From Hyphomicrobiales bacterium (GTDB lineage Bacteria > Pseudomonadota > Alphaproteobacteria > Rhizobiales > RI-29), in contig WGLQ01000007.1 of NCBI GenBank assembly GCA_016125495.1, forward strand, positions 248,001 to 312,000: 64,000 bases of DNA, in the 5' to 3' direction. Position numbers and translations under genes: made by a program. Positions within the stretch are counted from its first letter, which is position 1. Each line of letters starts with the position of its first letter. This document shows, piece by piece, positions 1,576-30,273 of this stretch. The notes under the pieces were generated by a model. The model was not told the DNA's origin. It saw nothing but the letters and a program-made list of their open reading frames with translations, and did no database searches.

Positions 1576-1647
1576 GAGAAAGCTGAGGTAAATGAATACC
1601 CCACGTCTATATAACTGATTTCAAAGCATTCTTTTTTTCGCTTTTGT

Positions 1648-1676
1648 TTGACAAACGCGTGCGTCGCCCGCTAGAA
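1648..1676 (+). promoter_or_regulatory. probable sigma-70 promoter of rplM-rpsI
   Basis: A perfect -35 hexamer TTGACA (1648-1653) is followed after 17 bases by CTAGAA (1671-1676), in an unusually T-rich island just upstream of rplM. The match to strong alphaproteobacterial housekeeping promoters is good at -35 and moderate at -10. Position, 90 bases before the rplM start, fits a ribosomal-protein operon. Confidence 0.6.
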
Positions 1677-1764
1677 GAGCCCGTCGGCGGACGGATGTCT
1701 CCGCCTCCCCCAATTCGTGACCATCGCGCCCCCGCTGCGGGGTCCAGCAAGCGGAGCCTCCCGC

Positions 1765-2232
1765 ATGAAGACCTATTCGGCCAAACCCGCCGAGATCGAG
1801 AAGAAATGGGTGCTGATCGACGCCGAGGGCCTCGTCGTCGGTCGCCTCGCCGCCCTCATTGCCCGGCGTCTGCGCGGCAAGCACCTGGCGATTTTCACGC
1901 CGCACGTCGATTGCGGCGACAATGTCATCGTCGTCAATGCCGAGAAGGTCGTCTTCACCGGAGCCAAGCGCACCGACAAGACCTATCATTGGCACACCGG
2001 CTATCCGGGCGGCATCAAGGAGCGCAAGGCGCACCAGATCCTGGACGGCCGCTTTCCCGAGCGCGTGATCGAGAAGGCCGTCGAGCGGATGCTTCCGGGC
2101 GGCCCGCTGTCGCGCCAGCAGATGCGCAACCTCAAGATCTACGCCGGTCCGGACCATCCCCATCAGGCCCAGACGCCGACGACGCTCGACGTCGCGGCGC
2201 TGAACCCCAAAAACACCATTCGCGAGAGCTGA
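1765..2232 (+). CDS. rplM: 50S ribosomal protein L13
   Basis: The 155-residue product is L13 from end to end. It begins [20 protein letters not shown], has the conserved [18 protein letters not shown] segment that contacts 23S rRNA, then [15 protein letters not shown] and the [10 protein letters not shown] loop. The length is usual for the family. The ATG at 1765 gives the standard N-terminus; in-frame codons further upstream add residues not found in L13. It forms the usual two-gene operon with rpsI, which starts 49 bases downstream. Confidence 0.98.
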
Positions 2233-2281
2233 CCGAGTCCGCATCGCCGCCCGACCCCCGTTACGCCGAAAGTGATCCCCA

Positions 2282-2767
2282 ATGGCAGACACCCCGTCCA
2301 GCTCCCTCGAAGCCCTCGGCCAGCTCGCCGGCGTCGAGAGCGCCCAGACCGCCCCGATCTACCAGCAGAAGCTCGATGCGCACGGCCGTGCCTACGCCAC
2401 CGGCAAGCGCAAGGATGCCGTCGCCCGCGTCTGGGTGAAGCCGGGCAGCGGCAAGATCACCGTCAACAAGAAGGACGTCGTGCAGTATTTTGCCCGCCCG
2501 GTGCTGCAGATGATCCTGCGCCAGCCGCTGGTGGTTGCGGACCGCACCACCCAGTTCGACGTGATCTGCACCGTCGCCGGTGGCGGCCTCTCGGGCCAGG
2601 CCGGCGCCGTCCGGCACGGTCTCGCCAAGGCGTTGACGCTCTATGAGCCGGAATTGCGTCCGGTGCTGAAGCGGGCCGGCTTCCTGACGCGCGACAGCCG
2701 CGTCGTCGAGCGCAAGAAGTACGGCAAGGCCAAGGCCCGCCGCAGCTTCCAGTTCTCCAAGCGCTGA
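2282..2767 (+). CDS. rpsI: 30S ribosomal protein S9
   Basis: The 161-residue product is S9, a head protein of the small subunit whose basic tail reaches the P site. The core begins at [20 protein letters not shown] and ends in the invariant RRSFQFSKR tail. About 35 extra residues precede the core ([20 protein letters not shown]...), an extension common in alphaproteobacterial S9. It lies 49 bases after rplM and is followed by a strong terminator, so the transcription unit appears to be just these two genes. Confidence 0.98.
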
Positions 2768-2820
2768 TCCTGGCGTCGGCGCACGACGCCCGCGCGCCAC
2801 GGCGAACACGATTGTTGCAG

Positions 2821-2850
2821 GGCCCGGTGCGAACCGGGCCTTTTTCTTTG
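2821..2850 (+). terminator. rho-independent terminator of rplM-rpsI
   Basis: A perfect 8-bp stem GGCCCGGT / ACCGGGCC (2821-2828 and 2833-2840) closes a GCGA tetraloop and is followed at once by TTTTTCTTT. It sits 54 bases after the rpsI stop codon. Confidence 0.93.
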
Positions 2851-2939
2851 CGCGCGCCCGTATCAAGCTGGCCCGAGCACGAGGTGGCCCCGGCCGTTCC
2901 GGAGTTCCCTTGCCCCGCCCCACGCAACGAGGAGTGCCC

Positions 2940-3608
2940 ATGTCCCGGCACCAGACCCCCCTCACCCCCGAACTGCTCGCCTACCTCGAGCGCATCTCGC
3001 CGGCCGAACCCGCACCGATGGCCGCATTGGCGAGCGCGGCCGACCAGCTCGAGCACGCCAACTGGCGCGCCTCGTCGGCCGAGGCGCGCCTTCTCGCCCT
3101 CCTGGTTCGGCTGATGGGGGCCCGGCGCTGCCTCGAGATCGGAACGTTCGTCGGCTATTCGACACTCTGGATCGCGAGCGCCCTGCCTGCGGACGGCCGC
3201 ATCGTCACCTTCGACATCATGGACGAATACCCCGCCGTCGGCCGCCCGTTCTGGGAGGCGGCGGGAGTTACAGGCCGCATCGATCTGCGCATCGCCCCTG
3301 CGCTCGAGGCCCTGCCCAGCCTCATCGCCGAGGGTGGCCCCGGCAGCTTCGACATGGCCTTCATCGACGCCGACAAGAAGAACTACCCGAAATACTACGA
3401 ACTCTGCCTGGAACTGGTCCGCCCCGGTGGCCTCATCGCCGTCGACAACACGCTCTGGAGCGGCCAGGTGATCGATCCCTCCGACACCTCGAAGGCGACC
3501 GAGGGCATCCGTGCGCTCAACGCCCGCATCGCCGCCGATCCGCGCATCGAGGCAGCGCCCCTCTCGTGCGGCGATGGCCTGACGCTCGTCCTCAAGCGGG
3601 GCGCCTGA
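2940..3608 (+). CDS. class I SAM-dependent O-methyltransferase (Methyltransf_3 family)
   Basis: A 222-residue relative of catechol/caffeoyl-CoA O-methyltransferases. The SAM-binding strand and glycine loop are seen as CLEIGTFVGYSTLWIASALP (around residue 62). The metal-binding AFIDADKKNYPKYYE (around 140) and RPGGLIAVDNTLWSGQV (around 163) carry the conserved Asp residues for the divalent cation. The start at 2940 has GAGGAG five bases upstream. The acceptor is unknown. It stands alone between the rpsI terminator and a convergent glycosyltransferase. Confidence 0.88.
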   Translation: MSRHQTPLTPELLAYLERISPAEPAPMAALASAADQLEHANWRASSAEARLLALLVRLMGARRCLEIGTFVGYSTLWIASALPADGRIVTFDIMDEYPAVGRPFWEAAGVTGRIDLRIAPALEALPSLIAEGGPGSFDMAFIDADKKNYPKYYELCLELVRPGGLIAVDNTLWSGQVIDPSDTSKATEGIRALNARIAADPRIEAAPLSCGDGLTLVLKRGA

Positions 3609-3651: not shown

Positions 3652-4953
3652 CTACGATGCCGGACCCGCCAACAACCCTTCGAGGATGTCGCACGCCCGC
3701 CGGGCGCCGTCCTCGGCCGCAAGCTGCGCTGCCACCGTGCCCGCCGCCCGCGCAAAGTCCGGATTGCCAACGAGGCGCCGGAGGTCGGCCGTCAGCCGCT
3801 CGCCCGTCCACTTGCCCGGGCTCGGCCCCGCAATGCCCGCCCCCAGCGCTTCGACACGCGCGGCCCAATAGGGCTGATCGATCAGGAACGGACAGACGAG
3901 GGTCGGGCGCCCGCAGCGTAACCCCATGGCCGTCGTGCCCGCGCCGCCATGGTGGACGACGGCCGCAACGAGCGGAAAGAGCCGGTCGTGCGGGGCTCCC
4001 GTGATGACATGCACGTTCTCCGGAAGGGCCCGCCCCGAAGCCGCCTCGTCGAGCCCACCCCAGCCGCCGGCGATGATCGCGCGAAGCCCGTTGGCCGCGA
4101 GGGCAGAAAGCCAGAGGTCGAGTGCCTTGCCCGGCTCGCCGAGCGGCATGGAACCGAAGCCGATGTAGACCGGCGGTGGGCCGGCTGCGAGAAAGCGGGC
4201 GAGCCGCGCATCGGGCTGCCATTCGGTGCTGGCAGGAGCCGTGTCCCAGACATAGCCGGTCACATGCACGTGCGCCGGCCAATCCGCTGGCCGCGGCTGA
4301 ACGGCCTCACTGAACGCATAAATGATCGGCAGGGGTGAGCCGTCCGGACGGCTGCGAAGGCTCGCGTGGCTCCGCGCCGACGGCAGACCGAGCAGTTCGC
4401 GCCGCAGCCGGCGCGTGATGCCGCCGAGGAAGAGGTGCTCGGCGCCGAGCATCGCATAGCTCGCCCGGTTCAGGGTGCGGCCGAACGAACGGGTCGAGAT
4501 GGGGAAGATCGGGAAATCCCCCGTCGGCGTCAGCGGCTGGTAGGCGAGCATCGCGGACGGCACACCGAGCGCTTCGGCGATCGAACTCGCGAAGGTGACC
4601 TTGGGATGGAAGACGACGAGGTCGGCGCCCTCGCACGCGGCGACCGCCATGCGGGCTGTGGTCTCGTGCCAGGTCCGGGCGACACGGAGCTGGCCTTTGA
4701 GGTTCGCGAAGGCACCGCGCTCGATGATGGTTCGCGCGACGGGATCCTTCAACAGCAGGCGGATGTCGTCACCCGTGCGCGCGAAGTCGATTCCGCGCCG
4801 GGTCACCATCTCCTCGAAGTTGGCGGGAGCGCCGATCCGGAGCCTGAAGCCGCGATCGCGGAGCCGTACGGCGAGGTTCAGTGCCGGGGCGACGTCCCCG
4901 AGGGAGCCCGTGACGAGGATGACGACGAGGGGAGCGGTCCTGCCAGGCAACAA
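3652..4953 (-). CDS. GT1-family glycosyltransferase (UGT/sterol glucosyltransferase-like)
   Basis: A 433-residue GT-B protein. The N-terminal domain has the GSLGDVAPALNLAVRLRDRG donor-family signature, as in macrolide and sterol glucosyltransferases. The C-terminal domain has YIGFGSMP (around residue 262) and the diagnostic VVHHGGAGTTAMGLRCGRP (around 336), where HHGGAGTT contacts the nucleotide sugar. It probably moves a sugar from a UDP/TDP donor to a lipid or secondary metabolite; the acceptor is unknown. The start is a TTG at 4953 (a second TTG follows) with AAGGAG (4957-4962) just upstream. It is monocistronic and divergent from argC. Confidence 0.85.
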   Translation of the reverse strand: MLPGRTAPLVVILVTGSLGDVAPALNLAVRLRDRGFRLRIGAPANFEEMVTRRGIDFARTGDDIRLLLKDPVARTIIERGAFANLKGQLRVARTWHETTARMAVAACEGADLVVFHPKVTFASSIAEALGVPSAMLAYQPLTPTGDFPIFPISTRSFGRTLNRASYAMLGAEHLFLGGITRRLRRELLGLPSARSHASLRSRPDGSPLPIIYAFSEAVQPRPADWPAHVHVTGYVWDTAPASTEWQPDARLARFLAAGPPPVYIGFGSMPLGEPGKALDLWLSALAANGLRAIIAGGWGGLDEAASGRALPENVHVITGAPHDRLFPLVAAVVHHGGAGTTAMGLRCGRPTLVCPFLIDQPYWAARVEALGAGIAGPSPGKWTGERLTADLRRLVGNPDFARAAGTVAAQLAAEDGARRACDILEGLLAGPAS

Positions 4954-5208
4954 TCGCTCCTTCCCCGATCAATCGTGCCTCGACGCGGCAGCACGCCCGT
5001 TCTAGAGCTTTTCCGGGACTGGGGCTAACCCTCGAGAGCGGATCGACCGACCCCGTCGGGAGACCCTGTGGTTACGTGTCGTCGTCGGACAACCCGCACC
5101 CGCTCACCCGGTCCAGACAGAAGCGTCCTCAGGACGCGCTACGCGACGCGGCGTGAAATCGATCAGTCGTGCCGCGAGGGGGCAAGAGCCGCACTTGAAG
5201 AGGTTATG

Positions 5209-6258
5209 ATGGCCAACCGCAAAACCATCCGCATCGCCGTCATCGGCGCCTCCGGCTACACCGGGGCCGACCTCGTGCGTCGCGCCGCCCGCCACCCGGC
5301 GATCGAGATCGTCGCTCTCGCGGCCAAGAGCAATGCCGGCCGTCCCCTCGCCGAGGCCTTCCCCCATTTCGCGGGCCTCGACCTTCCCGATCTCGTTTCC
5401 GTCGAGGATGTCGATTTCAGCGCCGTCGACGCCGCCTTCTGCGGCCTGCCGCACGCCACCGCCCACGAGATCATCGCCGGCCTGCCGGCGCGCGTGAAGG
5501 TCGTCGACATGTCCGCCGACTTCCGCCTGAAGGACCCGGCCGTCTACGAGGAGTGGTACGGCGTGGCCCACCCCGCGCCGCATCTCTTGGCCGATGCCGT
5601 CTACGGCCTCACCGAGCACTACCGCGAGGCGATCGCTGCCACCCGGCTCGTCGCCTGCCCGGGTTGTTATCCGACCGCGACGCTGCTCGCCCTTCTGCCG
5701 GGCCTCGCCGCTGGCGTCATCGCCCCGGACGATCTCATCATCGACGCCAAGTCGGGGGTTTCGGGGGCCGGCCGGAGCCTGAAACAGAACGTGCTCTTTT
5801 GCGAGGCCGGCGAGGGCCTCTCGCCCTACGGCATCGCCAAGCATCGCCATGCCCCCGAGATCGAGCAGGAGATCGCCCGCGTCACCGGCGGCGACGTGCG
5901 CGTCAATTTCACGCCCCACCTCGTGCCGATGTCGCGCGGTGAACTCGTTACCTGCCACGTGCGCCTCGCGCCGGGCGCGCGGGCCGAGGACCTGCGCGCC
6001 GCGCTCGAGACGAGCTATCGCGGCGAGCCGTTCGTGCACGTGCTGGCCAAGGGCGTCATCCCGGCAACGCAGAATGTGCGCGGCTCGAACGCCTGCCACA
6101 TCAACGTCTTTGCCGACCGCATTCCGGGTCGCGCCATCGTGGTCGCGACCATCGACAACCTCGTCAAGGGCTCGGCCGGTCAGGCCATCCAGAACTTCAA
6201 TCTGATGTTCGACCTGCCGGAGACGATGGGCCTCGAGCAGATCGCGCTCTTTCCCTGA
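5209..6258 (+). CDS. argC: N-acetyl-gamma-glutamyl-phosphate reductase
   Basis: The 349-residue product reduces N-acetylglutamyl phosphate to the semialdehyde with NADPH, the third step of arginine synthesis. The nucleotide loop VIGASGYTGADLVRR is at the N-terminus and the catalytic cysteine is Cys153 in VACPGCYPTATLL. The conserved KSGVSGAGRSLK and FTPHLVPMSRG segments are present, and the length matches ArgC type 1. The second of two adjacent ATGs (5209) is preferred because GAAGAGG ends 5 bases before it. The rpsI-argC vicinity is typical of Hyphomicrobiales. Confidence 0.96.
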   Translation: MANRKTIRIAVIGASGYTGADLVRRAARHPAIEIVALAAKSNAGRPLAEAFPHFAGLDLPDLVSVEDVDFSAVDAAFCGLPHATAHEIIAGLPARVKVVDMSADFRLKDPAVYEEWYGVAHPAPHLLADAVYGLTEHYREAIAATRLVACPGCYPTATLLALLPGLAAGVIAPDDLIIDAKSGVSGAGRSLKQNVLFCEAGEGLSPYGIAKHRHAPEIEQEIARVTGGDVRVNFTPHLVPMSRGELVTCHVRLAPGARAEDLRAALETSYRGEPFVHVLAKGVIPATQNVRGSNACHINVFADRIPGRAIVVATIDNLVKGSAGQAIQNFNLMFDLPETMGLEQIALFP

Positions 6259-6280
6259 ACCGGCTCGCGGGACGTCGTTG

Positions 6281-7435
6281 TCAATCGCGTTCCTCGGCGG
6301 CCGCACCCGCGCCCGCGACGATGCCGCCACCCGGCTCACGCAACACCGCGTGCAGGTTCCAGAGCGCGAGCGCCAGCACCACGAAGGCCCCCGCCTGGTG
6401 CACGAGCCCCAACCAGAGCGGCACGGCCTCCAGCAGCGTCCAAACCCCGAACCCCGCCTGTACGACGAGCCCAACCGCCAGCGCGCCAGCCGCGAACCGC
6501 ACCCGTTGTGAATCGCCGATGTTGCGCCGGACGGCGACGACGTGCGCGAGGCCGAAGGCGAGGAGCACATAGGCCGCCATGCGGTGGTTGAACTGCACCG
6601 TCAGCGCGTTCTCGAAGACGTTGAGCCAGGCCGGCTGCATGGCCAGCAGCCCGTCCGGAATGAAGGCCCCGTCCATGAGCGGCCACGTGTTGTGCGAGAG
6701 GCCCGCATTCATCCCGGCAACCAGTGCACCGAGCAGGATCTGCAGGATGATGCCGACAACCAGGGCGACGCTCGAAACGCGGAGCCAGAGCGGCACGCCA
6801 CCCTGCCAGGCCCCCACACCGCCGAGCGGATCCGAGCGGGGCCGCAACCCGAGTGCCGTCCAGACCAGTGCCGCGAAGATGACGGTGGCGAGCCCGAGGT
6901 GCGCGGCGAGGCGATACTGGCTGACGTCGACCCGATCGCTGAGCCCGCTCTGCACCATGTACCAACCCATGACGCCCTGCAGGCCGCCGAGCGCCAGGAT
7001 CAGGCAGAGGCGCCCGGCGAGACCCGCCGGTATCCGCCGGAGCACCAGCAGAACGAGCAGCGGCAACCCGAAGGCGAGGCCGACGAAGCGGGCGAGCTGA
7101 CGATGCCCCCACTCCCACCAGTAGATGAATTTGAACTCCTCGAGGCTCATACCCTTGTTGATCTGCTGGTACTGCGGGATCTGCCGGTATTTCTCGAAGG
7201 CGTCGTGCCAATCGGCCTCATCGAGCGGTGGGATGGCACCCAGGATCGGCTTCCATTCGGTGATCGAGAGCCCGGAGTCGGTGAGCCGGGTCGCCCCGCC
7301 GACCACGGCGACGGCCAGCACCAGCGCCGCCACGAGGTAGAGCCAGAGGCGAACGAAGCCGGGCCATGCTCGCCGCTCCTGGCGCCCTTCGCGGTCGTCT
7401 GAGCTGGCCGCCACGTCCGCATCGGTCGCGCTCAT
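6281..7435 (-). CDS. ctaA: heme A synthase (COX15/CtaA type)
   Basis: A 384-residue inner-membrane enzyme that oxidises the C8 methyl of heme O to make heme A for aa3-type cytochrome oxidase. Eight hydrophobic segments are visible. The signature VGGATRLTDSGLSITEWKP lies after the first helix, and the heme ligand histidines occur in EWGHRQLARFVG, RLAAHLGLA, VQFNHRMAAYVL and LGLVHQAGAF. This is the longer alphaproteobacterial/mitochondrial form. The ATG at 7435 is fixed by a strong GAGGAGG just upstream; the open frame extends further but without family similarity. It converges with argC, with only 22 bases between stop codons. Confidence 0.95.
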   Translation of the reverse strand: MSATDADVAASSDDREGRQERRAWPGFVRLWLYLVAALVLAVAVVGGATRLTDSGLSITEWKPILGAIPPLDEADWHDAFEKYRQIPQYQQINKGMSLEEFKFIYWWEWGHRQLARFVGLAFGLPLLVLLVLRRIPAGLAGRLCLILALGGLQGVMGWYMVQSGLSDRVDVSQYRLAAHLGLATVIFAALVWTALGLRPRSDPLGGVGAWQGGVPLWLRVSSVALVVGIILQILLGALVAGMNAGLSHNTWPLMDGAFIPDGLLAMQPAWLNVFENALTVQFNHRMAAYVLLAFGLAHVVAVRRNIGDSQRVRFAAGALAVGLVVQAGFGVWTLLEAVPLWLGLVHQAGAFVVLALALWNLHAVLREPGGGIVAGAGAAAEERD

Positions 7436-19832: not shown

Positions 19833-21152
19833 TCAGAAACCGGCCAGCGTCGCCCCGGCCGCCAGCGCGACGGCAACGGCGAGCACCTCGGGCACGCTGC
19901 GATGCAGCGCCAACAGCAGCACGCCGCAGATCAGCGCCAGCCCGCCCGCCAGCGGGTCGATGCTCGACAACTCCGGAACCCCGAAACGAACCGGCCCGAC
20001 CTCGACAGGCACGATCGAACGGAAAATCACGTGCAGCGCGAACCAGATCGCGAGGTTGGCGATGACACCGACGACGGCCGCCGTTATCGCCGCGAGCGCG
20101 CCCTTGAGACGCGGCTGGCCGTTGAGCCATTCGACGTAGGGCGCACCGACGAAGATCCAGAGGAAACAGGGAGCGAATGTCGCCCAGAGCGCGATGACGG
20201 CTCCCGCCGCGCCGAGCCACAGATTGCCCTCTCGCCCGGCGGCCGCAACGAAGGCGACGAACTCGGTCACCAGGATGAGCGGGCCGGGCGTCGTCTCGGC
20301 AAGCCCGAGGCCGTCCATCATCTGGCCGGTCGTCAGCCAGCCCCGCACCGCCACGACCTCCTGCGTCATATAGGCAAGCACGGCGTAGGCCCCACCGAAG
20401 GTGACCACCGCCAGCTTGGAAAAATACCAACCGAGGTCTGCCAACAATCCCCCTGCGCTCCCCCACTCGAGGACGATGAGCGGCAGGAGCCAGATGGCGA
20501 GCCAGACAACCGCGGTGCGCAGGCTCGCCCCGACATGCCCCGCCGCTAGACGCGCCACGTCGGCGTCCGCCCCGGTTGCCCTTTTCCCGGTCAATGCCCC
20601 GGGCGTCAGGAACCCGGCGAGAGCGGCCACGACGACGATCATCGGAAACGGCGTGTTGAAGAGGAAAATCGCAACGAACGCCGCAGCCGCGATCGAAAGC
20701 TGGAGACCGCCGACGAGCGCCCGCCGTGCGATACGCCCGAGTGCTTCGACGACGATCGCCAATACCGCCGCCTTGACGCCGAGGAACAAGCCCTCGACCA
20801 CGGGCACGTCACCGAGCGCCACGTAGAGCATGGAAAGGAAAAGAACGACCAGTGCCCCCGGCAGCACGAAGAGGAGCCCTGCCGCGAGACCACCGGCGAT
20901 GCCATGCAGCCGCCAGCCGGCGTAGGTCGCGAGTTGCATCGCCTCCGGCCCCGGCAGCAGCATGCAGAAACTGAGGGCGTTGAGAAAGCGCCCCTCGTCG
21001 AGCCAGCGTTTTTCATCCACCAGCATCCGGTGCATGAGCGCGATCTGCGCCGCCGGCCCCCCGAAGCTCAGCAACCCGATCCGCGCCCAGACACCGAGCG
21101 CCTCGCGAAAGCTCGGCCCCTCGCGAACCGGCACTTCCTGCCCCACCGTCAT
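19833..21152 (-). CDS. chrA: chromate transporter ChrA family (two-domain form)
   Basis: A 439-residue integral membrane protein with two homologous CHR halves. The first opens with FREALGVWARIGLLSFGGPAAQIALMHR and contains FLNALSFCMLLPGPEAMQLATY; the second has KLAVVTFGGAYAVLAYMTQEVV and GLGLAETTPGPLILVTEFVAF. The FGGP/FGGAYA and PGP motifs are the CHR signatures. ChrA exports chromate; many homologues have not been tested. GGAGG precedes the ATG at 21152. It converges with the amidase, 8 bases between stops. Confidence 0.92.
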   Translation of the reverse strand: MTVGQEVPVREGPSFREALGVWARIGLLSFGGPAAQIALMHRMLVDEKRWLDEGRFLNALSFCMLLPGPEAMQLATYAGWRLHGIAGGLAAGLLFVLPGALVVLFLSMLYVALGDVPVVEGLFLGVKAAVLAIVVEALGRIARRALVGGLQLSIAAAAFVAIFLFNTPFPMIVVVAALAGFLTPGALTGKRATGADADVARLAAGHVGASLRTAVVWLAIWLLPLIVLEWGSAGGLLADLGWYFSKLAVVTFGGAYAVLAYMTQEVVAVRGWLTTGQMMDGLGLAETTPGPLILVTEFVAFVAAAGREGNLWLGAAGAVIALWATFAPCFLWIFVGAPYVEWLNGQPRLKGALAAITAAVVGVIANLAIWFALHVIFRSIVPVEVGPVRFGVPELSSIDPLAGGLALICGVLLLALHRSVPEVLAVAVALAAGATLAGF

Positions 21153-21436
21153 GCCCCGCCTCCACTGCCGATCCGCGATTCCAGCCCGAGACCGGATCCC
21201 GAGGCCAGGCCCGCATCATGGGGCCAGTCGTGTGTCTCGCCGAAGACATCGCGCGCCCAGCAATGGAATACATCGTGGACAGGATCGAGGACGCGATGTT
21301 TGGGCTGTCGCCTCGAGGGGCAATCGCGTGGGGCCCCTGCCGGTGAGGAAGACAATACCCGCACCGAGTTTTCGATCGCAAGCACACGCCAACGCCGCGC
21401 GCCGAAGCCGCGCATCTGCGCCTGCTGTTTGCCGGC

Positions 21437-22037: not shown

Positions 22038-23132
22038 TCACGCCTTCCTGCCCGTCCCCTCTTGCCCGGGCGAACCTTCCTCCCTCGCCCCGCCGCGCAC
22101 CCGCGCGCCGCCGACGAGTTCAGCGATGATCGCACGTAGGCTCGCCGGCTTGCTCTCGATGTGCGGCAGCGGCCGGCAGACCGCGATCGCCGCCAACCCG
22201 AGCCGCGCGGTCAGCGTCCCGTTGAAGACGCCCTCCCCGAGCCGACCGGCAACCAACCCGACGAGCCGCTTGCCGATCATATCCTGCGCGAGATCGAGTG
22301 TGAATGCGATCCCGCCGGTGACCACGACGTGCGTGACGACCTTGCGCACCAGCCGAAGCGAGGCGAAAAACCCCGGCCGCCCGCCGTAGAGTTCGGCGAG
22401 GCGCCGCAGCATGCCGAGCGTCTGGGCCGCAACGAAAGCCATGTCGAGCAGGGGGCTCGGCGAAAGCGCCGTCAGAACCGAGACGCGCTTGGCCGCATCG
22501 GCAACGATCGAGCGCGCCCGCCCATCGAGCGCCTGCGCAAGCTCGCGATCGGCGAGCACCAGCACTTCTCCGGCGGACAGCACGCCCCCGTCCTGGCGCG
22601 CGAGCATCGTCAGCGCCCAGCGCATGTCCTCGCGCTCGCGATAGAGTGTGCGCAGTCCGTTGAGCGCGCGCCGCGCGGCCTTGCCGTCGTCCTGCCGGAG
22701 CGCCTCCTCGGCATCCTGACGCACGCGCCCGAGTCGGCGCAGATGCCAGAGCCCGGCGATTTCGCGGACAGCGATCCCGACGGCGGCGAGCCCCGCGAGA
22801 AGCACGAGTGAAAGCGCCGTCCAGCCGAGCCAGCCCTCCCGGCGCATCAGATCGGCGACGAAATCGGTGAGCCAGACGCCGGTGGCGAGCGCGACGAGCG
22901 AGCCGAGCGCGGCGAACAACAACGCGATCCAGACTGCGCCCTTCTCGGCGACGCCCCGCGGCGATCTGGCGCCAGCGGGCAGCGCATCGCCCGGCGTATC
23001 GTCCGTCAAACCAAAAGGTCCGTCCCGCCGCTCGTCCTCGAAGCGCACGCCCGCATCGCCCGGCGCGAACGCGGTCGGTTTCGGATCCCCTCCCCCGCGC
23101 TCCCGGTCGCGATCGTCCCCCCGTCCCGTCAT
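22038..23132 (-). CDS. YcjF-like membrane protein (TIGR01620/DUF697)
   Basis: A 364-residue protein with a hydrophilic N-terminus (about 1-65), two TM helices (about 68-88 and 98-120), a helical soluble part, and a C-terminal DUF697 segment with VVTHVVVTGGIAFTLDLAQD. This is the pattern of E. coli YcjF, of unknown function, encoded with YcjX in phage-shock regulons. Its ATG overlaps the stop of the YcjX gene by four bases, so the two are translated together. Confidence 0.85.
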   Translation of the reverse strand: MTGRGDDRDRERGGGDPKPTAFAPGDAGVRFEDERRDGPFGLTDDTPGDALPAGARSPRGVAEKGAVWIALLFAALGSLVALATGVWLTDFVADLMRREGWLGWTALSLVLLAGLAAVGIAVREIAGLWHLRRLGRVRQDAEEALRQDDGKAARRALNGLRTLYREREDMRWALTMLARQDGGVLSAGEVLVLADRELAQALDGRARSIVADAAKRVSVLTALSPSPLLDMAFVAAQTLGMLRRLAELYGGRPGFFASLRLVRKVVTHVVVTGGIAFTLDLAQDMIGKRLVGLVAGRLGEGVFNGTLTARLGLAAIAVCRPLPHIESKPASLRAIIAELVGGARVRGGAREEGSPGQEGTGRKA

Positions 23133-24589
23133 GCCAACTTGTCCCCGATGAGGAACTGGAGCGCCCTGTCGAGGCGGATGTGCGGCAGCGTCGCGCCACC
23201 GCCGCGCCCGCCCGCTCCGCCCGTCTCACCTGCGCCCGGCTCGAGCGGCGGCGGCAGGAAGCGCACGAAGCGGATGTTGCGCCGGCTGCGCAGTGCCTCG
23301 TCGGGGTCCTCCGGCAGCGTGCCCGGATAGATCACGGCCTCGGTGCGGCCATCGTAGCGTTTTCCATCGATCGTTTCACCCGCCATCGGCACGCCCGCGA
23401 TGCAGCGCAGTGTCTCGCCGTCGCGCGTCACGACCGCCTGTCGCGTCGCCCGGACCGAGGCGATGGCGAGCGCCCCGACCTCGGCGCCGGCATCCCTCGC
23501 GCGTGCGCGGGCCCGCTCCACGATCCGCCCCATGATCCGCTCCAGCCGATCATATCCGGTGGCGTGCAGATGGTCGGCCTTCGTGGCAGCGAACATGACA
23601 CGGTCGATGCGGGGGCTGAACAGCCGGGTCAGCCAGTTTCCGCTCCCCTGCCTGAATGCCGGAAGGATCGAGCTGACGGCCCGTTCGAGATCCTCGATCG
23701 CATCCGGCCCCGCGTTGAGCGCCTTCAAGACGTCGACCAGCACGATCTGGCGGTCGAGCCGCGAGAAATGGTCCCGAAAGAAGGGTTTGACGTATTCGCG
23801 TTTGTAGGCCTCGTACCAGGCGTCGAGCTGATCCCGCAGCGTCACCGCCCCCCCGCGCGCCGGCCGCGGCCGCTCGTCATTCGGCAGCGGCAGAGGAAAG
23901 AAATTCATGAGCGGCTTTTCCGCATCCCGCCCCGGCTCGAGGAAGCGGCCGGGCGGCAAGGTCGAGAGCGCGTGGCGATCCTCCCGGCAGGCCTTGAGGT
24001 AATCGCGAAAGAGCGCGCTTCCAGTGTAGGCGGTATCACTGGAAAAGGGTCCGTCCGGCTCGATCGACTCTATGAAGGCGAGAAAGCGCGCCGCCAGGCT
24101 GCGCCGGGCCGGGCCGGCGGCGAGAATGAACGCCTCGCGCGACCAGGTGAGATAATCGCGCTCCAGCAGCGCCAGATCGAGCAGCCATTCACCGGGATAA
24201 TCGACGATCTCGACGTCCAGCGTGCGTTCGCCGAGGAAGGCGAGGAGACCCGCGCGCGGCTCGTACGTCAAGCGCAAGCGCAGTTCGCTGACGCTGTCGG
24301 TGCGCTCCGGCCAGCCCGCGGGGCGCCCCGTCAGGGCCCGGATATAGCGCTCGTAGGCAAAGAGATCGTCGTAATAGGGTGGCGGCATCAGGACGACCGC
24401 CTTGAGGCGCCCCTGTGCCACCGGCTCGAAGAAGGGCAGCCAGCCACCGTCCAGGAGGTTGTGCACCAGCGCGGTGATGAAGACCGTCTTGCCCGAGCGC
24501 GAAAGCCCGGTCACGCCGAGTCGCACCGTGGGGCGCACCAGATCACGCGCGGTCTCGAGCCGCTCTGCCGTCCAGCTTGCGAGCCCCAT
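23129..24589 (-). CDS. YcjX-like P-loop NTPase (DUF463)
   Basis: The 486-residue product has the Walker A motif GLSRSGKT at about residues 27-34, the YcjX sequence FITALVHNLLDGG just after it, and the acceptor-like VEIVDYPGEWLLDL. MFAATKADHLHATGYDRL resembles the TKxD base-recognition motif of GTPases. The family is a GTP-binding stress protein linked to the phage-shock response; no psp genes are nearby. The pair with YcjF is conserved widely in proteobacteria. Confidence 0.9.
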   Translation of the reverse strand: MGLASWTAERLETARDLVRPTVRLGVTGLSRSGKTVFITALVHNLLDGGWLPFFEPVAQGRLKAVVLMPPPYYDDLFAYERYIRALTGRPAGWPERTDSVSELRLRLTYEPRAGLLAFLGERTLDVEIVDYPGEWLLDLALLERDYLTWSREAFILAAGPARRSLAARFLAFIESIEPDGPFSSDTAYTGSALFRDYLKACREDRHALSTLPPGRFLEPGRDAEKPLMNFFPLPLPNDERPRPARGGAVTLRDQLDAWYEAYKREYVKPFFRDHFSRLDRQIVLVDVLKALNAGPDAIEDLERAVSSILPAFRQGSGNWLTRLFSPRIDRVMFAATKADHLHATGYDRLERIMGRIVERARARARDAGAEVGALAIASVRATRQAVVTRDGETLRCIAGVPMAGETIDGKRYDGRTEAVIYPGTLPEDPDEALRSRRNIRFVRFLPPPLEPGAGETGGAGGRGGGATLPHIRLDRALQFLIGDKLA

Positions 24590-24784: not shown

Positions 24785-26773
24785 TCAGCAGCCCGGCCAG
24801 GGCGACGAGGTCGTGATCGCCTCCGAGCAGTTGGACTTGGGCTTGCGTCCACCCGTGCGCGTTGCGCTGCGCGTCGGCGTTCTCTTCGGCGCCGCCCGAA
24901 CGACGGGTTTCGGTTTCGGCGAACTCGTCCGGGTGGTCGTCCGCCGGGTGGTCGTGGTCCGGGACGGCGTGCTCCGGGTCCGCGTCGGTGTCGCCTCGCT
25001 CGGCGCCGTCTTGACCGTACGGGTGCTGCGCGGGGTGTAGCACTTGCCGCGCGAGTTGCGCTTCTGGCCCTCGGCGCACTCGGCGCGGCGCGGCTCGCTG
25101 GCCTGCGGGCTCGTGCGCCGGGCGACGGACGGCTCGGTGTCGCACACCACTTTCGACGTCTCGATCGCCTCGAGCAGGTCTGCGCTCGGCTCCTGGTCGT
25201 CCAGCGCCTCGTTGCTGTACTCGGCAAAGCGCTCGAGCGCCCCGGCACTGTTGCGGCCCCAGATCCCGTCCGCCCGTCCTGAGAGGCAGGATTTCTCGAT
25301 CAGCGCCTGCTGCAGGCGCGTGATGATCTGGTAGGAGCTGAGGGCCGGCTGCTCGTTCTCCACCTGGGTCGGATCGGCGGACGCCACCTTTTGGGTCGGC
25401 GTGGCTGGAACCGTCGGCTCAGCCGTCGCGGGCGCGCCCGGAACACTCGGAAGCGTCGGCGCCTGCCCGAGTGAGGGCGCGGTCGGGGCCGAGCTCTGGC
25501 TCGGTGCGCTGGCGGCCGGGAGCGCCGCGACCTTGGCGGCCTCCTCCAGCTCCTTCAGCATGGCCTCGAGTTCGCTGCGCTTGGAGCAGCACGTGCAGCT
25601 GCCGAGATAGGCGTCGGCGGCCGCTGCGCTGCGGCTCGATAGGATGACGTCGGCCGTCTCCCGCTCGCGCGCGCAGATGCGGGCATTGAGCCGGTCCTGC
25701 CGCAGACGGTCCTGCAGCTCCGTGCGGTTGGGGCAATAGAGGCAGCTTTCGAGGTAGCCCGAAACCTTGGTCTCGTCGGGCTCGGCCAGCAGCAGCGCCG
25801 AGCGCAGCCGCTCGTCGTGCTTGCGGTCCTCGGCGATGATCCAGGGCAGGCGACCGCCGGGGTTCGCGAGCACCTCACCCGGCTCGGCGCCGACCAGTTC
25901 GGCACGCTGCACAGCGCCCGGCTCGACAGCCTTGAGACGGCGCGACATGCGGGTTTCGAGGAACCGCTCGAGTTCGCCGGCCGTGATCGCACCGTCCCCA
26001 TCGCCGCCGAAGTCGGCTTCGTCCGCCTCCCCGAAGAGGCCGGAAACCAGCGCATCGGTGAAGATGCTCATGCGGTGGCCGGTATCCCAGACCGCGAACT
26101 GGTCGCCCTGGGCCGCGGCCAGGACGCGAATGGAGGACGACGTCAACGCGGTGCGGCTCGCCAGGACGACCGGCGCGCCATGCAACGGCGCGCTCCGGTT
26201 CTTGACGAGATCGCCGGCATTGCTGCGACCCGAAAAGCAGCTTTCGAGCACGAGCGTCACCTTGCCTTCGGGCATCTGTTCATTCTTGAGTCGCTCGAGC
26301 TGCGAGATCAGCGTGTCGACGGAATAGCCCGAAACGGCGAGCTGGCTCGGCTCGGAATCGGTCGCCATCAGATACGGGATCGACTGGTTGCTACCCTGGG
26401 CCGTCTCGCGCGAGCCGTGCCCGACGAAATAGACGAACAGCTCGGCATCCTTGCCGCGCACCAGACCGGTCAACCGCCCGAGACTGTTGCCACCGCCGAA
26501 CAGCACCTTGAGGTCGGCGAGCGAGGCATTGTCGACGCGCTCGATGTTGCGGCGCGGGATTTCATAGACCGTGGTCAGCAGTTCCTCGATGGCCTGGGCA
26601 TCGCGCTCGGCGAACTGGATTTCGCTGGCGTAGCGATAGTCCTTGTTGGCGACGATGATGGCGAAGCGCTCCTTGGCGCTCGCCGAGGCCGCCATCGTGA
26701 CGAGCCCTCCGAGCCCGGCAGCGAATGCCGCGAGCATCATGCCGGCGAACGACAGTCGGGATGTCCTGCTCAT
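24785..26773 (-). CDS. secreted caspase-family (C14) protease, paralogue 1
   Basis: A 662-residue protein with a signal peptide (about 1-33, cut near ASASA) and a caspase-fold p20 domain at once after it: RFAIIVANKDY, AERDAQAIEELL, then the dyad His119 in YFVGHGSRE and Cys179 in LVLESCFSGRSNAG. A calcium-loop-like GGDGDGAITAGE follows (256-267). Next come Cys-rich repeats (ESCLYCPN, GSCTCCSK), a Pro/Ala linker, a PG-binding-like segment (QQALIEKSCLSGRADGIWG) and a Thr/Arg-rich tail containing CAEGQKRNSRGKCY. Start 26773 has GGAGGA close by. It lies head-to-tail downstream of a paralogue with the same plan. Confidence 0.88.
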   Translation of the reverse strand: MSRTSRLSFAGMMLAAFAAGLGGLVTMAASASAKERFAIIVANKDYRYASEIQFAERDAQAIEELLTTVYEIPRRNIERVDNASLADLKVLFGGGNSLGRLTGLVRGKDAELFVYFVGHGSRETAQGSNQSIPYLMATDSEPSQLAVSGYSVDTLISQLERLKNEQMPEGKVTLVLESCFSGRSNAGDLVKNRSAPLHGAPVVLASRTALTSSSIRVLAAAQGDQFAVWDTGHRMSIFTDALVSGLFGEADEADFGGDGDGAITAGELERFLETRMSRRLKAVEPGAVQRAELVGAEPGEVLANPGGRLPWIIAEDRKHDERLRSALLLAEPDETKVSGYLESCLYCPNRTELQDRLRQDRLNARICARERETADVILSSRSAAAADAYLGSCTCCSKRSELEAMLKELEEAAKVAALPAASAPSQSSAPTAPSLGQAPTLPSVPGAPATAEPTVPATPTQKVASADPTQVENEQPALSSYQIITRLQQALIEKSCLSGRADGIWGRNSAGALERFAEYSNEALDDQEPSADLLEAIETSKVVCDTEPSVARRTSPQASEPRRAECAEGQKRNSRGKCYTPRSTRTVKTAPSEATPTRTRSTPSRTTTTRRTTTRTSSPKPKPVVRAAPKRTPTRSATRTGGRKPKSNCSEAITTSSPWPGC

Positions 26774-26951: not shown

Positions 26952-28997
26952 CTAAAGCCACGAGCACGTGCGCGGCCGCCCTGTCCTCGTCGATCCACCT
27001 GTACACGAGAGACGGCGCCCGCAAGGATGGCGTCCCGAGACCGAGTCACCCGTCGAGATGCTGCCCCTCCCCCAGACGGAAAGGCTCGCCGCCGTCGCAT
27101 TGGCCGGGCAGTTGCCCGTGGATGCGGTTCGCTTCTTTGCCGCCGAGGCGTTGGGCGTCGCCTGGCGCGTCGGCGCCGGTGAGGTCTTCTTGGGGGCTGC
27201 CGTCTGCGGCTTTCGCGGCTCGGCTGGCGTGTAGCAGGCGCCGCGCGAATTTCGCTTCTGGCCCGCCGCGCATTCCACCCGCTCTTGTTTGCGCGGGGTC
27301 GTGCGGGGCGGCGGCGCCGTCCGGTTGCGAGGCTCCTCCGCCGTGGTGGCCGGGGTGGTCGTAGCGACGTTGGCCGGTGCACAGGGCTGCGCTGAAGCCT
27401 CGATGAGATCGAGCAGGGCAGGCACCGGGCCCGCGTCCACATCGATCTCGATATCGCCGCGGTCACGGTGCATTTCGGCAAATCGCTCAATCGCCCTCCG
27501 GCTCGCAGGCCCCCAGGAGCCGTCGGCTCGACCGGAGAGGCACTTGCGCTCGATCAACGCACTCTGAATGCGGGCGATCAGCTCCCGGCCCGCGAGCGAA
27601 TTGCCCCTGACTGGCGCACCATCAGCGCCCGGCACCGGAAGCGGAACATTCGCCGACACCCCAATGCCGACGCCTCGCGCCCCCGATCCGTCGACGCCAC
27701 TCGGCGCGCCGAGGGCCGCCGCCGAGATATTTCCGACAAAGCTCAGCGCCGCCGTGCGCACCCGCTCCAGCTCGGCGGCGCGCGCTTCGAGCGCCGCACG
27801 CTCGGCGCAGCACTCGCACGTGCCGAGAAACGCCTTGATGGAATCGACACTGCCTTCGGTGACCAGCGACTGCGAGGTCGGCGCCTCCAACTCGCACATG
27901 CGGGCGCTGCGCCGCATCGACTGCACCCTTTGGCGAACCTCGTCCTGGTTGGGGCAATAGAGGCAGTCCTCGAGGTACCGCCTCATGGCCCCTTCGTCGG
28001 GCTTGGCCAGAAGCAGCGCCGAACGCAGACGCTCGCCGTGCCGGCGCTCCTCGGCGGCGATCCAGGAGAGCTGGCCCTGCACGTTCGCGAGCACTTCGTC
28101 ACTGGAAAGACCGACGAGGTCGGGCGTCTGCACGACACCGGCCTCGATGCGCGCGAGGCGCCGCGCCATGCGCCGCTCGAGGAAGTTCCCGAGTTCGCCC
28201 GCCGTCACGTTGCCGTCGCCATCCCCACCGAGGTTCGCATCGTCCGCCTCACCGAAAAGGCCGGAGACCAGCGCATCCGTGAAGACGCTCATCTCGTGCT
28301 GGCCATCCCAGACCGCGTATTGGTCGCCTTGCGCCGCCGCGAGCACCCGGACCCCGACAGGGGCTCCGGCACCGAGCCGGTGCGACAATACGACGGGCGC
28401 GCCGTGGAGCGGCGCGCTGCGGTTGCCGAGGAGGTCGCCCGCGTTGCTGCGCCCCGAAAAGCAACTCTCGAGCACGAGCGTCACCTTGCCCTCGGGCAGG
28501 ACCTCTCGTTTGACGCGCTCGAGCTGCGAGACGAGGAGGTCGACGGAGTAGCCGGAATCCTCGAGCTGGCTCGGATCGGTGTCGGCCGCGATCAGATAGG
28601 GCACCGACACGCCCCCGACCCGGCTCTCGCGCGAACCATGCCCGACGACGTAGACGAAGAGCTCGGCCGTCCCGCCCCGCACCATGCCGGCGACCCGCCC
28701 GAGGCGCTGACCCTGACCACTGCCGAAGAGCGTGCGCAGGTCGCCGAGCGTGGCATTGTCGATGCGCTCGATGTTGCGGCGCGGCACCCCGTAGACGGTG
28801 GTGAGCAGTTCCTCGACCGCCTGCGCATCGCGATCGGCGAATGCGACGGGGCTGGCGTGGCGATACTCCTTGTTGACGACGAGGACCGCGAAACGCTCGC
28901 CCGCGTAAGCCGCACCGCAGGCCGCCCCCTGCCAGCCCGCGACCACCACAGCCGCGAGCATCCGAATGAACGTCGCGAACATGCGTCTTTCAGCCAT
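26952..28997 (-). CDS. secreted caspase-family (C14) protease, paralogue 2
   Basis: A 681-residue paralogue of the next gene downstream, similar from end to end. Hydrophobic N-terminus (about 9-32), RFAVLVVNKEY, His120 in YVVGHGSRE and Cys179 in LVLESCFSGRSNAG, so the dyad is intact. It shares the GGDGDGNVTAGE loop (257-268), the paired-Cys repeats, the IERKCLSGRADGSWG segment and CAAGQKRNSRGACY. The C-terminus runs about 30 residues beyond the paralogue's end in odd-looking, Arg/Gly-rich sequence. Start at 28997 chosen over 29051 for a GGAG at usable distance. It is divergent from the TIR-DnaJ gene. Confidence 0.87.
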   Translation of the reverse strand: MAERRMFATFIRMLAAVVVAGWQGAACGAAYAGERFAVLVVNKEYRHASPVAFADRDAQAVEELLTTVYGVPRRNIERIDNATLGDLRTLFGSGQGQRLGRVAGMVRGGTAELFVYVVGHGSRESRVGGVSVPYLIAADTDPSQLEDSGYSVDLLVSQLERVKREVLPEGKVTLVLESCFSGRSNAGDLLGNRSAPLHGAPVVLSHRLGAGAPVGVRVLAAAQGDQYAVWDGQHEMSVFTDALVSGLFGEADDANLGGDGDGNVTAGELGNFLERRMARRLARIEAGVVQTPDLVGLSSDEVLANVQGQLSWIAAEERRHGERLRSALLLAKPDEGAMRRYLEDCLYCPNQDEVRQRVQSMRRSARMCELEAPTSQSLVTEGSVDSIKAFLGTCECCAERAALEARAAELERVRTAALSFVGNISAAALGAPSGVDGSGARGVGIGVSANVPLPVPGADGAPVRGNSLAGRELIARIQSALIERKCLSGRADGSWGPASRRAIERFAEMHRDRGDIEIDVDAGPVPALLDLIEASAQPCAPANVATTTPATTAEEPRNRTAPPPRTTPRKQERVECAAGQKRNSRGACYTPAEPRKPQTAAPKKTSPAPTRQATPNASAAKKRTASTGNCPANATAASLSVWGRGSISTGDSVSGRHPCGRRLSCTGGSTRTGRPRTCSWL

Positions 28998-29056
28998 CCC
29001 CAAGTCTCCGCAATGGACCCCAAGTTCCGCTCCGCGGCAGAGCCCGCTCACCGATG

Positions 29057-29091: not shown

Positions 29092-29166
29092 GGAATGCAG
29101 TCCAGGCACCGGTTGCCACGCCGGCAAATCACGGCAATGGTCGGCGAAAGATCGAGAGAGCGGATC

Positions 29167-30273
29167 ATGGCGGATATCTTCATCAGCTACGCACGCGAGG
29201 ACCGGGAGCGGGCCGAGGCGGTTGCCGCACTCGCCGAGCGCCACGGCCTCACCGTCTGGTGGGACCGTCGCTTGAAGGGCGGCGCCGCATTCCACCAGGA
29301 AATCGAGCGCGAACTGGTCGCTGCGCGCAAGGTCGTGGTGCTCTGGTCGGCAGCCTCCATCACCTCGGTCTGGGTGCGCGACGAGGCCGACCTCGCCCGC
29401 CAGCACGACAAGCTGCTGCCCATCAGCCTCGACGACAGTCCATTGCCGATCGGTTTCAGGAGCTATCACACGCTGCGCTACGGCGATGTGATGGCGGACG
29501 CCGCGAGCTTTCTCGCCGATTGCGGCCTGACACCGCAAGCTCCGGCCACGAAGGGCGCCGACGGGCAGGACCTGAACGCAATGTTCGACAGCTTCTTCGG
29601 CAAGAAGTCCGCCGAAGCATCGACAGCAGCCGAGATAGGCCTCGAGATCACGCTCGCCGAAGCCCATTCCGGCAAGACGGCCGACATGACGGTGCCGCTC
29701 AGAAGCCTCTGTCGAACCTGCAACGGCCGTGGCGCGAGCAAGCCGGAACAACTCACCTGCCAGACGTGCGCGGGAACCGGGCGCATCGTAGACAAGCAGG
29801 GCTTCTTCAATATCGAGAAGGCCTGCCCGACGTGCTTCGGCAACGGCAAGTTGCCGCCGCGCAGCCAGACGTGCGAGGATTGCCAGGGCAACGGTGTGCG
29901 CATGGTGAAACGCACCTTCAAGGTGAACATTCCCAAGGGGATCGAAAGCGGCACCCGCATCCGCCTCGCCGGCGAAGGCGAGCACGACCCGGCGACGGGC
30001 GTCACAGGCGATCTCTTCATTCGCGTCAGCGTTGCGCCGGATCCGGTTTTCACTCGCGACGGTGCCGATCTCCTGCGCCGAGTTTCGGTCTCTCGCGAAC
30101 TCGCCGAGCACGGCGGCGAAGTCGATATCGTCACCCTCACCGGGGATTCCCTGCGCATGAAACTGCCGGCCGGCACCACGGACGGCAAGCAATTCCGCGT
30201 GCGCGGTCGCGGCATGCCCAAACTTCGAAGCGAGGAGATCGGCGACCTCTACGTCGAGATCGCGCTCAGTTAG
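29167..30273 (+). CDS. TIR-DnaJ fusion: TIR domain joined to DnaJ zinc-finger and substrate-binding domains, no J domain
   Basis: A 368-residue cytoplasmic protein. Residues 1-115 are a TIR domain: MADIFISYAREDRERAE, a middle HQEIERELVAARKVVVLWS, then SVWVRDEADLA, where Glu73 sits at the position of the NAD+-cleaving glutamate. Residues 136-146 (DLNAMFDSFFG) resemble the end of a DnaJ Gly/Phe region. Residues 157-345 are DnaJ: LEITLAEAHSGK, four zinc repeats (CRTCNGRG, CQTCAGTG, CPTCFGNG, CEDCQGNG) and the C-terminal peptide-binding fold to GDLYVEIALS. There is no J domain and no HPD motif, so it should not stimulate DnaK. Start 29167 gives a normal TIR N-terminus; AGAGAG precedes it. Confidence 0.9.
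   Translation: MADIFISYAREDRERAEAVAALAERHGLTVWWDRRLKGGAAFHQEIERELVAARKVVVLWSAASITSVWVRDEADLARQHDKLLPISLDDSPLPIGFRSYHTLRYGDVMADAASFLADCGLTPQAPATKGADGQDLNAMFDSFFGKKSAEASTAAEIGLEITLAEAHSGKTADMTVPLRSLCRTCNGRGASKPEQLTCQTCAGTGRIVDKQGFFNIEKACPTCFGNGKLPPRSQTCEDCQGNGVRMVKRTFKVNIPKGIESGTRIRLAGEGEHDPATGVTGDLFIRVSVAPDPVFTRDGADLLRRVSVSRELAEHGGEVDIVTLTGDSLRMKLPAGTTDGKQFRVRGRGMPKLRSEEIGDLYVEIALS

Follow-up and report, generated by a model that had tools for sequence, protein, structure and literature searches.

A TIR domain in place of the J domain of DnaJ in an alphaproteobacterial protein, a candidate client-triggered NADase

Described systems closest to the fusion

By what general means immune proteins of bacteria recognize infection is an open question; in one recent study, DnaJ stands between phage proteins and an effector of NLR-like type. 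In the available text of that study (PMC12169576), bNACHT25 depends on host DnaJ for the detection of phage coat protein, and sensing fails with DnaJ H33Q and D35N, indicating that the J domain is needed. We analyzed a window of 64,000 nucleotides (G000:C7:248001-312000) from the 4.05 Mb genome of a Hyphomicrobiales bacterium, in which one gene encodes a TIR domain joined to the zinc and C-terminal regions of DnaJ. Judged by that text, bNACHT25 appears to be the closest published parallel: both would use DnaJ as a relay from infection to an immune effector, but bNACHT25 relies on a separate host DnaJ with a needed J domain and on a NACHT effector, whereas the fusion carries J-less DnaJ parts on a TIR domain.

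Each half of the protein also resembles a well-described family. With class A J-domain proteins (DnaJ, Hsp40) it shares the four-repeat CxxCxGxG zinc region, the client-binding C-terminal domains and a remnant of the G/F region; it differs in lacking the J domain and its HPD motif, in carrying a TIR domain at the N-terminus and, for the window copy, in lacking the C-terminal dimerization segment. With TIR NADases fused to sensors (TIR-STING, TIR-APAZ of SPARTA, TIR-SAVED, and SpbK) it shares an N-terminal TIR domain with a WxxxE motif and matching structure, but where those proteins carry a sensor of nucleotides, nucleic acids or a dedicated phage protein, it carries the client-binding module of a chaperone.

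Chaperone parts are found in predicted bacterial conflict systems as well, namely GAP1-N2 GTPase systems with HSP70 and DnaJ-domain fusions; as far as the available text describes them, these join FNIII-repeat proteins to a DnaJ (HSP70 co-factor) domain, whereas our fusion joins the client-binding part to a TIR and has no J domain (PMC7159879). The chaperones CsdK1 and CsdK2 of Myxococcus likewise combine a signaling domain with a chaperone and have a heat-stress cell-death link, but the domains concerned are PilZ and DnaK, not TIR and DnaJ (PMC10313047, available text). These examples show chaperone parts combined with other modules in circuits of this kind. No description of a TIR-DnaJ fusion was found in the open-license literature among the matches listed (titles and abstract starts), nor were exact phrases such as "TIR-DnaJ"; DnaJ appears only as a phage co-chaperone in PMC7824862, and PMC12345140 names dnaJ solely as one of the heat-shock genes and in its reference list. 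We regard the fusion as a TIR-with-sensor protein whose second module, the DnaJ client-binding part, has no earlier report that we found in this literature.

Domain order, predicted folds and candidate active site

The initial annotation, made from the letters alone, described one uninterrupted frame with an N-terminal TIR domain, a short FDSFFG remnant, four intact zinc-finger repeats and the DnaJ C-terminal fold, the HPD-containing J domain being gone. This TIR-DnaJ architecture is confirmed (Table 1). The frame has no internal stops, and all three Pfam matches lie above their curated cut-offs. The J domain has no Pfam match in the protein at E ≤ 0.1, HPD is absent from the sequence, and the N-terminal residues are predicted to fold as a TIR domain instead. 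FDSFFG pairs with the G/F segment of ordinary DnaJ (DIFDDLFGEFM), and the four repeats are complete, glycines included (C182/C185, C198/C201, C220/C223, and C236/C239). An alternative in-frame ATG lies at 29095, but the gene most likely starts at 29167, because MADIF is common to the window fusion, a second fusion (locus L064, below) and other TIRs.

Table 1. Coordinates of features in the window and at the L064 locus
Locus	Feature	Coordinates	Strand	Basis or remark
Window	TIR-DnaJ(ZF-CTD) fusion gene, 368 aa	29167-30273	+	Open frame; Pfam TIR_2, DnaJ_CXXCXGXG, DnaJ_C; relative L064
Window	TIR domain, residues 4-104	29176-29478	+	Pfam TIR_2, 5.2e-21; VIA-align match to TIRs
Window	W69-xxx-E73, WxxxE motif of TIR NADases	29371-29385	+	Alignment with AbTir W204/E208; residue roles as in available text of PMC11374754
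Window	FDSFFG, DnaJ G/F region remnant, residues 140-145	29584-29601	+	Alignment with ordinary DnaJ and L064
Window	DnaJ_C client-binding region, residues 156-366	29632-30264	+	Pfam, 8.7e-37; structure match
Window	DnaJ zinc region, four CxxCxGxG repeats, residues 182-243	29710-29895	+	Pfam DnaJ_CXXCXGXG, 9.7e-12; sequence
Window	Individual CxxCxGxG repeats	29710-29733, 29758-29781, 29824-29847, 29872-29895	+	Sequence
Window	Two tandem caspase-domain genes (Peptidase_C14)	24788-26740, 26955-29051	-	Pfam
Window	Adjacent DUF697 and DUF463 (YcjX-like) genes	22041-24589	-	Pfam
Window	chrB-a cis-regulatory RNA	21247-21342	-	Rfam, 57.3 bits; just upstream of chromate transporter gene
Window	Chromate transporter gene	19836-21152	-	Pfam
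L064	dnaK	1634-3553	Same as fusion	
L064	Ordinary dnaJ	3743-4915	Same as fusion	
L064	TIR-DnaJ fusion, 511 aa	5001-6536		Directly downstream of dnaK and dnaJ

Family models recognize the halves separately. NCBIfam models of bacterial DnaJ match the window fusion from residue 129 onward only, and PADLOC models at E ≤ 0.01 match the TIR part only (residues 1-83 at most), with no whole-length match to a known PADLOC system protein at that threshold. The comparison with Thoeris gave two weak matches to the TIR domain (Pfam ThsB_TIR, 19.7 bits against a cut-off of 21.2; PADLOC ThsB, 0.00016), and the 11 neighboring proteins contain no ThsA-type domain by Pfam.

An AlphaFold2 model built from 37 aligned rows has a mean pLDDT of 85.6 and a pTM of 0.45, at which it appears to support the fold of each half rather than the mutual placement of the halves; the linker around residues 127-153 is poorly predicted. 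Foldseek and VIA-align returned two separate sets of matches, to TIR domains for residues 1-121 and to DnaJ/Hsp40 for residues 150-368. The best TIR match is TRR-2 (4w8g; Z 18.0, rmsd 1.9 over 120 residues), followed by SARM1 (9mw2; 16.4, 2.1 over 117), SPARTA (8fex; 16.1, 2.0 over 121), AbTir (7uxu; 14.9, 2.2 over 120), and metazoan TIR-STING (6wt6; 14.8, 2.2 over 115). The initial annotation had allowed that structure comparison might reveal no TIR fold; the N-terminal part matches TIR structures. Residues 150-368 match Thermus thermophilus DnaJ (4j80; Z 17.7, rmsd 1.6 over 143) and DnaJA2 (7zhs; Z 18.1, but rmsd 12.0 over 216).

The TIR domain keeps most positions on which NADase activity depends. 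In a phmmer alignment with numbering anchored on AbTir E208, residues S7, D33, V58, W69, E73, and R78 pair with AbTir S140, D167, V193, W204, E208, and R215. Substitution of any of these six AbTir residues, or of R151, reduces NADase activity (PMC11374754, available text). Six of these seven positions are thus kept, R151 being replaced by E17. Glu73, in the motif WVRDE, had been proposed as the candidate NAD+-hydrolase residue, and the alignment bears this out: it pairs with the catalytic Glu208 of AbTir and is invariant among 25 aligned TIRs. By these residues, WxxxE included, the window TIR is a predicted NADase. TIR domains often pair with each other, and the genome encodes four other TIR_2 proteins, so we weighed whether the TIR is a binding module rather than an enzyme, tethering the client-binding DnaJ part, as a dedicated holdase, to other TIR proteins; the retained WxxxE pair, Asp33, and other NADase positions argue against this, and we consider it rather improbable.

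The DnaJ part was compared with 32 ordinary DnaJs (that of L064, the genome's own, and 30 of the order) at positions at least 94% conserved among them. The window fusion keeps 45 of 63 such positions in the C-terminal domain and 22 of 29 in the zinc region, including all eight zinc cysteines, but only 4 of 13 in the G/F region and none of the seven in the C-terminal dimerization segment; the J part (2 of 18) gives no meaningful alignment. The dimerization segment is missing because the protein ends right after the second C-terminal beta domain, at its last beta strand. DnaJ has its client sites in both beta domains, and substrate binding apparently involves the zinc finger as well (PMC8215388, available text). 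From this pattern of conservation, the fusion appears to have retained the client-binding parts and dropped both the DnaK-signaling head and the dimerization tail. Its DnaJ part is 48% identical to the genome's own DnaJ. In a DnaJ tree of 34 rows this part lies on a very long branch (4.53), so its client specificity may have changed.

A second fusion and the rarity of the architecture

A second TIR-DnaJ fusion, L064, occurs in an alphaproteobacterial metagenome-assembled genome (MAG; JAHZKP010000028.1, genome G1095), apparently from the order to which G000 belongs; the 40 relatives compared with G000 share its order only, and none is of its genus or family. L064 has the same domain order (TIR, G/F remnant, zinc repeats, and DnaJ_C) and is 41% identical to the window fusion over 398 columns. 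The initial annotation had raised the possibility that the order is absent from any other genome, as well as that of a frameshift or assembly join between the two parts. L064 answers the first, and we rejected the second on the open frame, the high GC3 along its whole length (0.68-0.90 per 41-codon block) and the independent MAG with the same order and a sister TIR. The presence of this order in a second genome makes an accident of assembly unlikely.

The two fusion TIRs are sisters with support of 97/98 and in 96% of 200 bootstrap trees, in a tree that has few columns for its 98 rows and in which one wrongly cut row (L149) is to be disregarded. The DnaJ tree separates the two fusions, with the window row very long, and topology tests reject none of three pairings, which join one fusion to the other (p 0.6), the window fusion to the DnaJ of its own genome (0.734), or the L064 fusion to its neighbor DnaJ (0.8). 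These trees are compatible with one fusion event or with two involving the same TIR type; the TIR tree favors one, and a single fusion followed by divergence is the simplest reading.

L064 departs from the window fusion in its DnaJ part. Only two of four zinc repeats are kept (Pfam 23.5 bits, under the 32.7 cut-off), which by position look like the first and the last; in DnaJ, the first and last repeats form one of the two zinc sites. There are three DnaJ_C stretches, corresponding to an extra C-terminal copy, and the linker is longer than in the window fusion. Conserved positions are kept at 57 of 63 in the C-terminal domain and 11 of 29 in the zinc region, and the predicted model (mean pLDDT 73.4) has low-confidence helices near its end. 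The loss of two zinc repeats together with the gain of a C-terminal copy (5001-6536) is an unusual rearrangement in a DnaJ scaffold.

The position of L064 directly after dnaK and dnaJ bears on two alternative readings. Plant immune receptors with integrated decoy domains offer a model for the first, in which the DnaJ part would lure phage proteins that bind or take over the host's DnaJ, and their binding would activate the TIR. Both lambda and MS2 are phages that depend on this host protein (PMC12169576, available text), and pieces of the L064 DnaJ part are 65% (query residues 210-380) and 43% (query residues 154-240) identical to the neighboring DnaJ, as expected of a duplicated mimic. The window copy, at 48% identity to its own DnaJ, is a poor mimic, however, and no phage partner is known for either host; we consider a decoy unlikely.

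The second reading is a stress-linked NAD+ regulator or cell-death factor without an antiviral role, in which heat or oxidative protein damage would lead to NAD+ cleavage and arrest. The chaperone genes beside L064 are consistent with it, and the PilZ-DnaK proteins are a bacterial precedent for a signaling-domain/chaperone protein tied to heat-stress cell death (PMC10313047, available text). Yet a hairpin of 59 bases (4924-4982; -26 kcal/mol, z -3.20), equaled by 1 of 200 shuffles, lies between the L064 dnaJ and the fusion; it may be a terminator or an attenuator, so joint heat-shock transcription of dnaK, dnaJ, and the fusion is at most a possibility. A simple terminator scan did not list this hairpin and found 8 such sites where 7.6 were expected, hence no excess. 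The window fusion, moreover, is not near dnaK-dnaJ: G000 has its own pair elsewhere, with no TIR gene listed beside it. A purely stress-linked role seems about as improbable as a decoy.

Within the searches made, the architecture looks very rare, with two cases. Two short TIR patterns, run against a collection of 84,980 species genomes, gave 388 stretches, 285 of them related, and we examined the best 80 of the 285. Among these 80, only L064 has a fusion like that of the window; in the remaining 79 no CxxCxGxG follows the TIR, with five frames running off their contig (L065, L070, L071, L106, and L116), two of them (L070 and L106) too early to judge. The scan query covered the zinc region as well as the TIR, which should place other fusions high in the ranking, although a fusion whose TIR has neither pattern would be missed. 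No further fusion beyond G000 and G1095 appeared among the matches listed (E ≤ 1e-50) in 397 genomes of the order, where a fusion like that of L064 (265 bits) would stand near the top.

Nor was a further fusion found in partly overlapping sets of 385 genomes of the class (matches < 1e-20), 398 of the phylum (< 1e-18), 148 relatives of G1095 (< 1e-18), and 296 genomes of its order (< 1e-25); since matches were kept only under these limits, a fusion could have escaped the search if its TIR is remote. When 53 loci were read on both strands, the only TIR frame with at least two CxxCxGxG repeats was L148, which is part of the L064 fusion itself, and no TIR motif or frame with more than one repeat was read at L151, L157, L164, L165, or L166. 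L049, which matches query residues 3-161, was rejected as a TIR with a probable membrane segment rather than DnaJ. Viral contigs yielded no relative by the short patterns used, and the plasmid and phage collections held no record with one place covering 80% of the query, the matches listed being DnaJ parts.

This rarity, and the long branch of the DnaJ part, are what a decaying or accidental fusion with no selected function would predict. An open frame with eight of eight zinc cysteines and the catalytic residues in place, and a second genome with a sister TIR and the same order, point the other way and make decay very unlikely.

By eye, related TIRs apparently precede tetratricopeptide-type, WD40-type or membrane parts. 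In L094 (from 814), the TIR is followed by an apparent P-loop NTPase and repeats, possibly a bacterial TIR-NB type protein.

Proposed mechanism and genomic setting

We favor, with a probability of roughly 0.5, a stand-alone sensor-effector in which the DnaJ part binds clients and clustered TIRs cut NAD+, leading to growth stop or death. The zinc and C-terminal beta domains would bind unfolded, aggregated or phage-made polypeptides, as in ordinary DnaJ, and in place of the J domain, which would pass the client to DnaK, the protein carries a putative TIR NADase. Several copies on one client or aggregate would bring their TIRs together; the TIRs could then assemble and cleave NAD+ or make a cyclic ADP-ribose signal, and NAD+ cleavage would stop growth or kill the cell. 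On this view the fusion most likely senses unfolded or phage proteins independently of DnaK and clusters TIRs for NAD+ cleavage, suggesting a switch for cell death or defense that abnormal proteins trip; the benefit would be phage defense or removal of protein-damaged cells.

Client binding that triggers NAD+ cleavage without DnaK, the reading offered in the initial annotation, would fit both the retained parts and the DnaJ-dependent phage sensing described in the available text of PMC12169576, and the sister TIR and shared order of L064 also count in favor of a client-triggered NADase. The absence of a C-terminal dimerization segment is in keeping with a monomer that would cluster only with the help of a client. 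Such monomer-to-cluster activation cannot be assumed for both fusions, given the zinc-region loss, the extra C-terminal copy, and the low-confidence end helices of L064. Against the proposal, sensing by bNACHT25 needs a working J domain, which the window fusion does not have; a J-less sensor would therefore be a different solution.

More tentatively, the fusion may be a one-protein innate immune receptor that senses infection or proteotoxic damage by J-less DnaJ client binding, guards or mimics the host chaperone and answers by TIR NAD+ cleavage, having arisen beside dnaK-dnaJ when TIR was exchanged for J in a duplicated dnaJ. Were this so, misfolded or foreign protein would have a chaperone module as its receptor, a parallel to eukaryotic unfolded-protein and guard/decoy sensing. 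As a DnaJ client-binding module and a putative NADase share one chain without the DnaK-signaling head, the idea is testable with a single purified protein.

Also counting against the proposal are the long branch of the DnaJ part, the small number of known cases (two), and the setting of the gene: there is no recognizable defense island around the window fusion. A mobile element is not supported: no phage or transposon genes were found by Pfam among the 11 neighboring proteins, and the window has no tRNA. A further point against the proposal is that no sigma-70-like promoter was found for the fusion, the one site between the divergent genes pointing toward the caspases. The two caspase genes are both divergent from the fusion; one of them, searched in six genomes (E ≤ 1e-10), gave six matches in G000 including the query, one in G096, and none in G001, G1095, G1096, or G1097. 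Given six matches in G000 and none in fusion-bearing G1095, the caspases do not form a conserved pair with the fusion, and we rejected such a link.

The caspase proteins have a sub-threshold match to the EACC1-associated caspase family, and both, judged by eye, carry a probable signal peptide and retain the GHG and ESCFSG motifs. YcjX/YcjF, which the DUF697 and DUF463 genes resemble, are stress genes in other bacteria. The other neighbors encode an HI0933-like flavoprotein, an M20 peptidase, and an ABC transporter (Pfam). The further TIR_2 proteins of G000 (L001, L003, L004, and L005) lie on other contigs in frames of 380-567 aa, and L003 and L004 apparently carry membrane segments (by eye).
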